A stretch of 64,000 nucleotides of DNA, taken from positions 3,162,001-3,226,000 of the forward strand of contig NZ_CP042432.1 of NCBI RefSeq assembly GCF_008033235.1, given 5' to 3'. Both the position numbers and the translations under genes were made by a program. The notes beneath the pieces were generated by a model. It searched no databases. It saw only the letters and a program-made list of their open reading frames with translations, and was not told the DNA's origin. The stretch is from Anseongella ginsenosidimutans. Lineage in GTDB: Bacteria > Bacteroidota > Bacteroidia > Sphingobacteriales > Sphingobacteriaceae. Below are positions 32,628 through 36,990 of this stretch, piece after piece; positions within the stretch are counted from its first letter, which is position 1, and each line of letters begins with the position of its first letter.

Positions 32628-33248
32628 ATGGAAGACTTGAAGACCTTTTATATTATCCGACACGGAGAAACAGATTATAACCGGATGGGCATTGTGCAGG
32701 GGCGGGGAGTGGATACAGACCTGAATGAGACCGGACGGATGCAGGCGCAGCGTTTCTATGAAGCCTACTCGGACGTGGCCTTTGATAAGATCTACACCTC
32801 CAAATTAAAACGAACGCATCAGACGGTCCAGCTTTTTATTGACCGGGGTATTGCCTGGGAACAGCTTCCGGGACTGGATGAACTGGACTGGGGCAATAAC
32901 GAAGGCCAGGACGCTGGTTCTGATACGATGAAGGAATTTTATAATGTAGCGGAACAATGGGCCCGGGGCGCATACGAAGTAGCCATACCGGGAGGGGAGA
33001 GCGCGCTGGATGTTGCCGCCAGGCAGGAAGAGGCGCTTCAGCATATGCTTTCCCGGGAAAATGAAAAAACCGTATTGGTTTGTATGCATGGGCGGGCTAT
33101 GCGCATCTTGATGTGCCGGCTTACCGGCAGCGAGCTGAGCGAAATGGACCGTTTTCCGCACCAGAACCTCTCCCTGTACAAGTTAAGCTTTGACGGGCAG
33201 GGCTTTGAGGTGCTTGATTTTAATGATTTAGCGCATCTTTATGAGTAA
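32628..33248 (+). CDS. Histidine phosphatase family protein
   Basis: A 206-residue phosphoglycerate-mutase-like phosphatase. The catalytic RHGETDYN motif is at about residues 12-19, with the second His in VCMHGRAMR and an acidic residue in ELDWGNNEGQD. Its substrate is unknown. It is sandwiched between mqnE (3-bp gap) and mqnA (8-bp overlap), so it is translated with the menaquinone enzymes, although no phosphatase step is known in the futalosine route. Confidence 0.88.
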   Translation: MEDLKTFYIIRHGETDYNRMGIVQGRGVDTDLNETGRMQAQRFYEAYSDVAFDKIYTSKLKRTHQTVQLFIDRGIAWEQLPGLDELDWGNNEGQDAGSDTMKEFYNVAEQWARGAYEVAIPGGESALDVAARQEEALQHMLSRENEKTVLVCMHGRAMRILMCRLTGSELSEMDRFPHQNLSLYKLSFDGQGFEVLDFNDLAHLYE

Positions 33249-34023
33249 AATACGCATTTCAGCCGTTTCCTATACGAATACAACACCTTTCGTCTACGGG
33301 ATAAGGCGGGATAAGGCTTTATTGGAAAAAATAGAGTTTATGCTCGATATCCCGGCGGACTGCGCCCGGAAATTAAAGGAAGACCGGGCGGATATAGGGC
33401 TTGTTCCCGTAGCAGTATTGCCTGAGCTTCCGTATTATGAGCTGGTTGCAGATTATTGTATCGGAGCAGTAGGAGAGGTCAATTCTGTTTTCCTGTTCAG
33501 CCGGAAACCGCTCGAAGAAATCCGTTTTATTCGCACTGATAATCATTCCCGTACATCTAATTTACTGGCCCGGATACTGGCTTCCCGTTATTGGAAAATC
33601 GATGCATCGTTTGGGAACTTTGCCGATGAAGACGCTTTTGTGCTTATCGGAGACCGTACGTTCGGGTTGAAAAAAGAATATCCTTACGTGTATGACCTGG
33701 CGGCCGAATGGATCCGGTTCACGGGCCTGCCATTCGTTTTCGCAGTATGGGCAGCCAATAAACCGGTAGACCCCGTGTTCAGGGAAGAATTCAACAGGGC
33801 GCTGGAATACGGCGTCACCCATCGAAAGGAATTGCTGAAAGAGCTTCCGCAGGTAAAGGGCTTTGACCTTGAAGAATATTTGATGAAGCACCTGAGTTTT
33901 GAACTGGACGCCAGGAAGAAGGAGGGACTCAGCCTTTTTCTGCAGCACGTGCAGGAAATTTTACTTGGAAGTAAGGAAAACAATACACATATTTGCAGTA
34001 ATGCAACAGGTAGTGATCTATAA
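33241..34023 (+). CDS. mqnA: Chorismate dehydratase MqnA
   Basis: Converts chorismate to 3-[(1-carboxyvinyl)oxy]benzoate, the first futalosine-pathway step. The 260-residue protein has a periplasmic-binding-protein-like fold without a signal peptide; family signatures are SAVSYTNTTPFVYGI at the start, DIGLVPVAVLPEL, and HSRTSNLLARIL. The start overlaps the phosphatase gene by 8 bp. The last residues (after LLGSKE) are poorly conserved and the DNA there also seems to carry the promoter and start of a trp leader ORF. Confidence 0.92.
   Translation: MSKIRISAVSYTNTTPFVYGIRRDKALLEKIEFMLDIPADCARKLKEDRADIGLVPVAVLPELPYYELVADYCIGAVGEVNSVFLFSRKPLEEIRFIRTDNHSRTSNLLARILASRYWKIDASFGNFADEDAFVLIGDRTFGLKKEYPYVYDLAAEWIRFTGLPFVFAVWAANKPVDPVFREEFNRALEYGVTHRKELLKELPQVKGFDLEEYLMKHLSFELDARKKEGLSLFLQHVQEILLGSKENNTHICSNATGSDL
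33964..33995 (+). promoter_or_regulatory. Candidate trp operon promoter inside the mqnA 3' end
   Basis: CTTG at 33964-33967, a 20-bp spacer and CATATTTG at 33988-33995 match the Bacteroidota -33/-7 consensus with one mismatch in each box. Transcription would begin near 34001, exactly at the leader ORF, so the leader would be leaderless or start at the GTG at 34013. Confidence 0.45.
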
Positions 34024-34066
34024 AAGCTGGTGGCGGCGTTTTTTTTTTACGCGGGCGCCGGTATGA
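34001..34066 (+). CDS. trp operon leader peptide with tandem Trp codons
   Basis: A 21-codon ORF too short for routine calling, from ATG 34001 to TGA 34064-34066, beginning inside the last codons of mqnA. It encodes MQQVVIYKSWWRRFFF and a short tail, with two adjacent Trp codons at 34028-34033 followed by two Arg and three Phe codons. The Trp pair, its position before trpD, and a terminator hairpin 42 bp after it are what a classical ribosome-stalling attenuator needs. The alternative is a chance ORF; two Trp codons in a 21-codon frame at this exact place makes that unlikely. Confidence 0.72.
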   Translation: MQQVVIYKSWWRRFFFTRAPV

Positions 34067-34107
34067 AGGGTGAATAACTTCGATTACTATCTGAAAGAAA
34101 TTCAAGA

Positions 34108-34135
34108 GGGTTGCCCATTCAGCAGCCCTTTTTTT
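34108..34135 (+). terminator. Attenuator terminator before trpD
   Basis: gggttgc (34108-34114) pairs with gcagccc (34122-34128) around a 7-nt loop and is followed by seven T residues, a proper intrinsic terminator, 38 bp before the trpD start. An earlier pairing cggcg (34034-34038) with cgccg (34056-34060), and an alternative of gggcg (34053-34057) with tgccc (34112-34116), could switch it on and off. It could also serve simply as the mqnA terminator. Confidence 0.75.
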
Positions 34136-34172
34136 ATTGGTATGCTCCGGAGGGGAGTTTTCATTTTAAGAT

Positions 34173-35159
34173 ATGAAAGAAATTCTGCGCCATTTATTTG
34201 AACATCGTAACCTGAACAGAGAGGAAGCCAGGCGGGTACTGGTGGAGATTTCGAGCGGAAAGCATAATCATTCCCAGATCGCCGCATTTATGACCGTATA
34301 CTGTATGCGCAGCATTACGGTAGAGGAACTCGGAGGTTTCAGGGATGCCATGCTGGAGCTGTGCCTTCGGGCCGACCTGAGTGAGTACGAAGGGATTGAT
34401 ATTGTAGGGACCGGAGGCGACGGTAAAAACACCTTTAATATTTCTACGCTGACTTCATTTGTTGTGGCTGGCGCCGGCTACCACGTGACCAAGCATGGAA
34501 ATTATGGAGTCAGCTCTGTTTCCGGCTCATCCAATGTACTGGAAAAACTAGGCTATACTTTTTCCAATGATATTGACCGGTTAAGGAGCGACCTGGACAA
34601 ATCAGGGATTTGCTTCCTGCACGCGCCCCTTTTTCATCCTTCTATGAAGAATGTAGGCCCCATCAGGAAGGAACTGGGAATAAAGACATTTTTCAATATG
34701 CTGGGCCCCCTGGCCAATCCTTCCTTTCCAAAACACCAATTCCTTGGAGTGCTGAACCTGGAACTGGCACGCCTGTACAACTACATTAATCAGCATCACG
34801 ATATAAACTACGCCATTATTCATGCCCTGGACGGGTATGATGAAATATCGCTGACTGGCCCTTTTAAAATGTACTCCAATTCCGGTGAAGCGGTTTATCA
34901 ACCGTCCGACCTGGGATTGAGCGCCGTAAAGGCATCAGCCATTTACGGGGGGGATTCCATTGATGCGGCCGCGGCCATGTTCCGCCGGATCCTTGAAGGA
35001 GAAGGGACGGAAGAACAGGAAAATGTGGTCATCGCCAACGCGGCCATGGCCATCCGTTTAATTGAAAAAGAAAAAAGCATTGCTGATTGCGTGGCAGCGG
35101 CAGCCGAAAGCCTGCGCTCCGGGAAAGCGCGTGAAGTTCTTAAAAAATTAGTTTCCTGA
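34173..35159 (+). CDS. trpD: Anthranilate phosphoribosyltransferase
   Basis: Transfers phosphoribose from PRPP to anthranilate, the second step of tryptophan synthesis. The 328-residue protein has the glycine-rich VGTGGDGKNTFNIST PRPP-binding loop, KHGNYGVSSVSGSSNVLE, and the HPSMKNVGPIRKELG and FNMLGPLANP signatures. It is the first structural gene after the leader, with trpF starting 1 bp after its stop. There is no fused trpG domain. Confidence 0.95.
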   Translation: MKEILRHLFEHRNLNREEARRVLVEISSGKHNHSQIAAFMTVYCMRSITVEELGGFRDAMLELCLRADLSEYEGIDIVGTGGDGKNTFNISTLTSFVVAGAGYHVTKHGNYGVSSVSGSSNVLEKLGYTFSNDIDRLRSDLDKSGICFLHAPLFHPSMKNVGPIRKELGIKTFFNMLGPLANPSFPKHQFLGVLNLELARLYNYINQHHDINYAIIHALDGYDEISLTGPFKMYSNSGEAVYQPSDLGLSAVKASAIYGGDSIDAAAAMFRRILEGEGTEEQENVVIANAAMAIRLIEKEKSIADCVAAAAESLRSGKAREVLKKLVS

Positions 35160-35796: not shown

Positions 35797-36990
35797 ATGA
35801 AGCTAGAAAATAAATACGGAGTGGATGAGCGAGGGTATTACGGGCGGTTCGGCGGAGCTTATATTCCCGAAATGCTTTATCCAAATATCCGGGAACTCCG
35901 GGAAAATTACCTGCAGATCATTAATGAAACGGGGTTTCGGAAAGAATTTGAAAACCTTTTGTCCGACTATGTAGGGCGCCCGACACCGCTTTACCTGGCA
36001 CAGCGCCTGAGCGAACATTACGGGACCAGCATTTACCTGAAACGGGAAGACCTGAATCATACCGGCGCCCATAAGATCAATAATACCATCGGGCAGATAC
36101 TGCTTGCGGAAAAACTCGGAAAGAAGCGGATCATCGCCGAAACCGGGGCCGGCCAGCACGGGGTGGCCACTGCTACGGTTTGCGCGCTGCGCGGCCTGGA
36201 ATGCGTAGTATATATGGGAGAAATCGATATGCAGCGGCAGGCTCCCAATGTCGCCAGGATGAAAATGCTTGGGGCAGAAGTGGTTCCCGCCACCTGCGGA
36301 AGCAAGACCCTGAAAGACGCCACAAACGAGGCGCTTCGGGACTGGATAAATAATCCGGTGGATACGCACTACATTATAGGCTCGGTTGTGGGGCCGCATC
36401 CTTATCCCGATATGGTGGCCCGTTTCCAATCGGTGATCAGCCGGGAAATCAGGCAGCAACTGCTTGATAAGACCGGAAGTGAACTACCTGACCATATCAT
36501 TGCCTGCGTAGGTGGGGGAAGCAACGCTATGGGCGCTTTCTATCACTTCCTGGATGAGGAGCAGGTAAAACTGACCGGCGTGGAAGCAGGCGGCGAAGGC
36601 GTCAATTCCGGAAAATCGGCGGCCACTACGGTGCTGGGAAAGGACGGGATCATTCACGGGAGCCGCTCCCTGCTGATGCAAACAGAGGACGGCCAGATCG
36701 TAGAGCCCCATTCCGTTTCCGCCGGGCTGGATTATCCCGGCATCGGGCCCCAGCACGCCCACCTGCACGATACCGGCCGGGTTAAGTTCGTGAACATCAC
36801 CGACAGGGAAGCGATGGAGGCAGGTTTGCTGCTTTGCAAACTGGAAGGAATTATTCCGGCGATAGAATCATCGCATGCCCTTGCATGGCTCGAAAAAATG
36901 GAATTCAGGGACAGCGAATCCATTGTGATCTCACTGTCGGGCAGGGGAGATAAAGACCTTCAAACCTATATTGACTATTTTAAATTATGA
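35797..36990 (+). CDS. trpB: Tryptophan synthase subunit beta
   Basis: Condenses indole with serine using PLP. The 397-residue protein has the PLP lysine in the HTGAHKINN motif, the [15 protein letters not shown] segment, the phosphate loop [12 protein letters not shown] and [14 protein letters not shown]. It is a TrpB1-type enzyme of usual length. It starts 3 bp after trpF and its stop overlaps trpA by 4 bp, so alpha and beta subunits should be made in near-equal amounts. Confidence 0.97.

Follow-up and report, generated by a model that had tools for sequence, protein, structure and literature searches.

A predicted tryptophan leader-peptide attenuator before trpDFBA of Anseongella ginsenosidimutans and its possible counterpart before trpEGC in Sphingobacteriaceae

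The DNA analysed here, referred to as the window, is a 64-kb stretch of the Anseongella ginsenosidimutans genome, in which a short ORF, overlapping the end of mqnA, and a hairpin precede a tryptophan operon. Downstream of this leader the genes follow in the order trpD, trpF, trpB and trpA (trpDFBA), the TrpF call being one of similarity below the model cut-offs. The features of the locus are:

33241..34023, + strand: mqnA; its last ~20 codons carry the promoter and it overlaps the leader ORF by 23 nt
33964..33967, + strand: possible -33 element CTTG, 20 nt 5' of the -7 box, a weak candidate from direct reading
33988..33995, + strand: -7 promoter box CATATTTG (consensus TANNTTTG) in the mqnA tail; the same eight letters in 21 of 26 family trpD leaders, NATATTTG in all 26
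34000..34001, + strand: predicted transcription start, placed by the box-to-start distance of Flavobacterium johnsoniae
34001..34066, + strand: leader ORF MQQVVIYKSWWRRFFFTRAPV with TGA stop, from direct reading; model R1, built without the A. ginsenosidimutans genome, aligns from 34001
34007..34018, + strand: outer helix P1 (anti-antiterminator), 5' arm; predicted fold and permutation test
34026..34032, + strand: inner helix P2, 5' arm, with most of the Trp codons; predicted fold
34028..34033, + strand: two adjacent Trp control codons, from direct reading; two or more Trp inside three codons in 26/26 leaders of the trpD set, which was picked for having the ORF
34053..34059, + strand: region 2, the antiterminator 5' arm; duplex of -12.4 kcal/mol with 34109-34116, covered by a ribosome at the stop codon if its footprint is as assumed
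34056..34062, + strand: inner helix P2, 3' arm, overlapping region 2; predicted fold
34082..34093, + strand: outer helix P1, 3' arm; predicted fold and permutation test
34104..34135, + strand: intrinsic terminator hairpin and U tract; stem-loop scan, -14.0 kcal/mol, conserved in the family
34109..34116, + strand: region 3, used in both antiterminator and terminator, the former leaving U34112 bulged; duplex energies and terminator scan
34173..35159, + strand: trpD, predicted first gene under control; TIGR01245, 305 bits
35161..35793, + strand: trpF; phosphoribosylanthranilate isomerase models, top 155 bits, under the curated cut-offs
35797..36990, + strand: trpB; TIGR00263, 595 bits
36987..37763, + strand: trpA; TIGR00262, 228 bits

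The leader ORF comprises 21 codons from the ATG at 34001-34003 to the TGA at 34064-34066 and contains TGG TGG at 34028-34033. The T tract occupies 34129-34135, and the trpD ATG stands 37 nt farther on, at 34173. Direct reading therefore bears out the earlier note, which had described a 21-codon ORF with adjacent Trp codons and a terminator before trpD: a short ORF with clustered Trp codons lies directly 5' of a trp biosynthesis gene, and an intrinsic terminator lies between the two. TGGTGG is not rare by itself, with 20 occurrences in the 64-kb window (27.4 expected). CATATTTG-N5..14-ATG occurs once (0.45 expected), and a terminator-like site alone is not unusual, with 8 found in 5 kb and an average of 6.6 per 5 kb in shuffled sequence. 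At the level of sequence, it is conservation and not the single motifs that raises the leader above chance. A weak second hairpin of five pairs is found at 34144-34158, between the terminator and the trpD start.

In F. johnsoniae the -7 box is described as spanning -12 to -5, with probable start sites 4-5 nt past it, and the -33 element as poorly defined (PMC6847099). The ATG of the window leader stands 5 nt after the -7 box. Given the F. johnsoniae spacing, the mRNA would have 0-1 nt of 5' untranslated sequence, and by this analogy the trpD leader mRNA is probably leaderless or nearly so. The earlier note had placed a Bacteroidota promoter inside mqnA, ending at 33995, and had called the leader leaderless; the recurrence of the box in the family leaders agrees with the former, and the predicted start with a leaderless or near-leaderless mRNA. 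Start codons of relatives' trpD leaders lie 6-14 nt from the box, and those of trpE leaders 4-8 nt in 20 of 21 cases. (The box was placed by hand in L021 and L056, and in the trpE leader of L061 the script picked a TTG inside the box as start, where a GTG stands 6 nt past it.) Leaderless mRNAs are given as 5.5% of the mapped mRNAs in Flavobacterium psychrophilum (PMC9723704).

The promoter is read from within a coding sequence. PF02621 (menaquinone pathway) spans residues 4-238 of the 260 residues of mqnA, and the homologues of 19 relatives align only as far as residue 235-252, so that promoter and leader overlap a non-conserved tail. This C-terminal tail (33961-34023), some 20 codons past the part aligned in the 19 relatives, holds the leader promoter. 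Since mqnA in those relatives lies on another contig than trpD (14 cases) or no closer to it than 18 kb (5 cases), the nesting of the leader in mqnA is local to the A. ginsenosidimutans lineage.

The predicted fold of 33996-34175 is more stable than that of all 200 dinucleotide shuffles (z -4.55). Its strongest helix is P1, in which 34007-34018 pair with 34082-34093 over 12 bp, two of them G-U. The terminator stem-loop (34104-34132) has 11 pairs, 5 of them G-C, and a loop of 7, and among the 8 terminator-like sites in 5 kb it has the most pairs. Two exclusive pairings had been put forward in the earlier note, 34034-34038 with 34056-34060 and 34053-34057 with 34112-34116; both can form, but the main helix P1 was missed.

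Conservation was examined in 60 genomes, 37 of them Sphingobacteriaceae. A trpD gene was found in 31 of the 37, one of them a fragment (genome G001 of the same genus), and the upstream regions of the other 30 were read. The -7 box, a Trp ORF, the competing pairings and the terminator occur together at 26 of these 30 loci, A. ginsenosidimutans included, with the start codon 5-14 nt past the box, an ORF of 13-22 codons and at least two Trp within three codons. Conservation of the Trp codons and the terminator in relatives was the check named in the earlier note, and at these 26 of 30 family loci its reading passed; the pairing moreover co-varies, as detailed below. The 26 leaders were picked for having the ORF, which leaves out L020, L029, L030 and L037. 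L020 offers 183 nt to the contig end and no leader within them, and the R1 match of that genome is on a different contig; L029 retains the box and the terminator and has no Trp ORF; upstream of trpD in L030 and L037 nothing similar was seen. In genus g3 (two genomes; L029, L037, L053, L082) box and terminator are the most that remains of the trpD leader, and the trpE leader still fits its model (L082, 74 bits), yet lacks clustered Trp codons. The trpD of G001 is a fragment of 53 residues; mqnA had no match there and no copy of the trpD leader was obtained. At the ten trpD loci read from other families of the class (L003 with only 206 nt upstream) no such leader was present, and by eye a TrpG-like end stands directly upstream in eight of the ten.

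A covariance model, R1, was built from 25 trpD leaders of relatives with A. ginsenosidimutans excluded. Its sole credible match in the 64-kb window is 34001-34135 (46.4 bits, E 4e-8; the next has 11 bits), and in the whole A. ginsenosidimutans genome there is one match at E<=0.01 (E 2.7e-6). Among 201 sampled Sphingobacteriaceae genomes, 197 have an R1 match at E<=0.01, and 178 have one at E<=1.1e-8 by tally of the table; counts at E<=0.01, for R1 as for the trpE-leader model R2, include weak and possibly chance matches, e.g. in genomes without trpD. The other 23 genomes comprise 19 with weaker matches and 4 with none. Fifteen of the 23 belong to genera g6, g10, g23 and g24, of which six genomes were searched and found without trpD, three belong to g3, and the last five are A. 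ginsenosidimutans, G001, G008, G155 and G171. Eighty named trpD loci, the best of 577 candidates, yield 18 matches to R1 at E<=1e-13, each at most 125 nt upstream of trpD: eight from Pedobacter, five from Mucilaginibacter, one each from Pelobium, Pararcticibacter and Sphingobacterium, and two from MAGs (Sphingobacteriaceae, Sphingobacteriales). These 18 score 75-101 bits compared to 46 for the window leader; seven further rows repeat loci counted before, with weak matches on the minus strand.

Since P1 varies in sequence and spacing, pairing was tested by duplex energies, each leader's own value being compared with partners permuted among leaders (5000 permutations; 26 trpD, 21 trpE and all 47 leaders). 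In the trpD set the mean for P1 was -8.1 (permuted -5.8), for the terminator -16.1 (permuted -12.1) and for the antiterminator -12.3 (permuted -11.3). For P1 and the terminator the own value was reached by none of the 5000 permutations in the trpD, trpE and joint sets, and the antiterminator behaves likewise in the trpE set (21 leaders) and the joint set (47). The competing helices are thus kept by covariation, the antiterminator with p 0.0108 in the trpD set alone. A leader's own partner was seldom the single best one (fractions 0.06-0.57). RNAalifold on MAFFT alignments recovers the terminator; in the trpD set 4 of the 8 terminator pairs show compensatory changes, as do 6 of 13 pairs in the trpE set. 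For the trpE set it also gives a 4-pair helix of the Trp codons with region 2; P1 was recovered from neither alignment.

The switch itself was modelled by folding the transcript before the second terminator arm is made, with a simulated ribosome of 27 nt, an assumed footprint. In the window leader the antiterminator reaches an occupancy of 0.68 when the A site holds the first Trp codon, and of 0.06 both with the ribosome at the stop codon and without ribosome. The value hinges on the exact stall under the assumed footprint, falling to 0.17 at the second Trp codon and 0.06 one codon later. Occupancy is higher under stall than at the stop in 26/26 trpD and 16/21 trpE leaders; the five trpE leaders without this gain include two in which the order is reversed, and in three trpE leaders (L048, L052, L062) region 2 ends at least 16 nt 5' of the stop codon. 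The stall-minus-stop difference of the window leader (0.62) is reached by 1.5% of 200 dinucleotide shuffles and its stall-minus-none difference by none, while the stalled occupancy taken alone is reached by 26.5% of the shuffles and is therefore not unusual. As family means, stall-minus-stop is 0.41 for trpD leaders vs a maximum of 0.10 in 20 shuffle sets, and 0.31 for trpE leaders vs a shuffle maximum of 0.06. Placing a mask near the start likewise frees region 2 and raises the occupancy, to 0.66 in the window and to family means of 0.59 and 0.60 vs stall means of 0.78 and 0.71. When the full transcript is folded, 44 of the 47 leaders retain a terminator occupancy of more than one half during a stall (window 0.98; the three exceptions are L015, L062 and L043, the A. 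ginsenosidimutans trpE leader), and therefore the switch there must work kinetically.

Parts, conservation, co-varying pairing and the in silico switch are supported by computation, and on these models 34001-34135 is very probably a ribosome-mediated transcription attenuator of trpDFBA. The attenuation reading of the earlier note gains from the same material, namely R1, the permutation tests and the simulated switch. For its operation we infer the start site, translation of the leader ORF and the dependence on Trp. Transcription would begin at the leader ATG or one base before. With ample charged tRNA-Trp the ribosome would pass both Trp codons, reach the stop at 34064 and cover region 2 (34053-34059), so that region 3 could pair with region 4 and the terminator would halt transcription. 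When Trp is scarce, the ribosome would stall at the Trp codons and open P1 and P2; the freed region 2 would pair with region 3, and the polymerase would proceed into trpD. In the case of no translation P1 and P2 would hold region 2, and the terminator would form. With such a leader, how tightly transcription and translation are coupled in Bacteroidota becomes open to test.

The chief interest lies outside the coordinates of the earlier note, in the putative double attenuator across the family. In A. ginsenosidimutans trpE lies 1.66 Mb from the trpD leader and is adjoined by a TrpG-like ORF and trpC (trpEGC). At 19 of 21 family loci trpE is preceded by a short ORF in which two or more Trp fall within three codons, L053 and L058 having separated Trp codons only, and at all 21 a hairpin with a T run follows the ORF, mostly of the CCCGRCG type rather than GGGTTGCC. 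The A. ginsenosidimutans trpE leader starts with GTG and contains HTGWRWHETKH, that of G001 starts with ATG and contains HTGWWWRGKTR; the trpE-leader model R2, built without either, scores them at 50.0 and 43.3 bits, respectively. R2 matches 190/201 family genomes at E<=0.01, a count taken over matches of any strength up to that threshold. Folded as the full transcript, the A. ginsenosidimutans trpE leader goes from a terminator occupancy of 0.96 to 0.00 under stall; its stall-minus-stop difference is reached by 9.5% and its stall-minus-none difference by 22.5% of the shuffles. A short upstream ORF with two or more Trp inside three codons was also read at 9 of 11 trpE loci from other families of the class. 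In A. ginsenosidimutans a second, separately built attenuator probably precedes trpEGC; both halves of the split trp pathway would then have a sensor of one kind and answer to one signal. It is quite possible, if just short of probable, that across Sphingobacteriaceae the unlinked trpEGC and trpDFBA operons stand under two separately built, parallel attenuators, with the same Trp codons, different terminator and antiterminator sequences, and leaderless or near-leaderless mRNAs. The two attenuators may differ in their set points, one operon opening before the other. The A. ginsenosidimutans trpE (L247 1542-2933, minus strand) shows a frame break close to the 3' end, past which the reading resumes in a different frame; the break could be real or a sequence error; the trpE of G001 is an open frame of 490 residues.

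This frame interruption could be taken to indicate that the leader is a relic, once functional in a pathway now decaying in A. ginsenosidimutans, and the 46 bits of the window leader compared to 75-101 for the 18 named matches (best 80 of 577 loci), together with the degeneration of such leaders in genus g3, point the same way. However, both A. ginsenosidimutans leaders were found by models that exclude them, the window leader retains its stall-dependent switch in silico, and trpD, trpB and trpA pass their models, which leaves a relic improbable. Less probable still is a terminator that ends the mqnA transcription unit, with trpD served by its own promoter and the small ORF due to chance. The terminator does stand just past mqnA, terminator-like sites are common, as given above, and so are WW pairs, but 26/30 family loci retain the box, a Trp ORF, region 2 and a terminator beside trpD, and this candidate was rejected because mqnA is distant from trpD in the 19 relatives. 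A Trp-binding or tRNA-binding (T-box-like) riboswitch in place of a ribosome sensor, as might be suggested by a structured leader ending in a terminator with a competing helix, is equally improbable: such switches need no short ORF with in-frame Trp codons, whereas a short ORF with clustered in-frame Trp codons is the conserved core here, and no Rfam match at gathering threshold was obtained at the window leader or in 20 loci holding such leaders.

A leader-peptide attenuator resembles several known systems. The E. coli trp leader (RF00513) likewise combines adjacent Trp codons, mutually exclusive helices and an intrinsic terminator, while here trpD is the first gene and the start codon stands almost at the predicted 5' end. 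The 41-bit cut-off of RF00513 was not reached; the best score was 29.2 bits in a relative (L017), and L001 gave no match. Another such system is trpL of Sinorhizobium meliloti (rnTrpL), described as a leaderless ORF for a 14 aa leader peptide in an organism with several trp operons (PMC7298713). According to the same source only trpE(G) is attenuated there and its RNA acts on trpDC in trans, whereas here each operon has its own leader. For F. psychrophilum, of the same phylum, 'strong clues' of leader-peptide attenuation upstream of amino-acid biosynthesis operons are mentioned, in a main text from which the words trp and tryptophan are absent (PMC9723704). Among the matches listed in a literature search on Bacteroidota, none was recognised as a Sphingobacteriaceae trpD leader or a double attenuator, and an earlier description is possible. 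The leaders make a clear case, by comparison, for trp attenuation through a leader peptide in a phylum without Shine-Dalgarno sequences.

The phylum also has a published RNA element of this kind, Bacteroid-trp (RF01692; Weinberg et al. 2010, PMC2864571, Table 1). The claim of the earlier note that such attenuation is 'little described' in the phylum was therefore too strong, given RF01692 in Rfam and in print and the clues from F. psychrophilum. By eye, RF01692 likewise has a UGG-codon ORF inside P1/P2-like helices and ends at a region-3-like arm; unlike the trpD leader here, its model ends before the second arm of the terminator, and for RF01692 no mention of two elements in one genome was met. 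The 49-bit cut-off was reached neither in the window nor at L001/L043, while P1/P2-like helices around UGG followed by region 3 are present. RF01692 gave no match in A. ginsenosidimutans at E<=1 and none in the window at gathering threshold, and a permissive Rfam scan of 8 loci returned it in one, at E 6.8. In the family it matches 83/151 genomes at E<=1, 8 of them above the cut-off, and all 8 coincide with R1 matches. The current Rfam model thus misses most copies in Sphingobacteriaceae. The window leader is best classed as a trp leader-peptide attenuator and not as a scored member of RF01692, placed and laid out as those leaders of relatives that pass RF01692; the kind of control is already known, and the window copy is a divergent example. 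The sole Rfam match of the window at gathering threshold is a cobalamin riboswitch (RF00174, 10896-11128, + strand, 59.6 bits).

In a sample of the class RF01692 matches 15 of 198 genomes at E<=0.01, 8 above the cut-off and at least one (L219) chance-like. Among 12 loci looked at, the gene next to RF01692 was named by eye at eight and is trpB in L207, L208, L211 and L214, trpE in L212, L213 and L216, and trpD in L172. It looks as if the element stands before different trp genes in different Bacteroidota families, following the gene that leads the operon.
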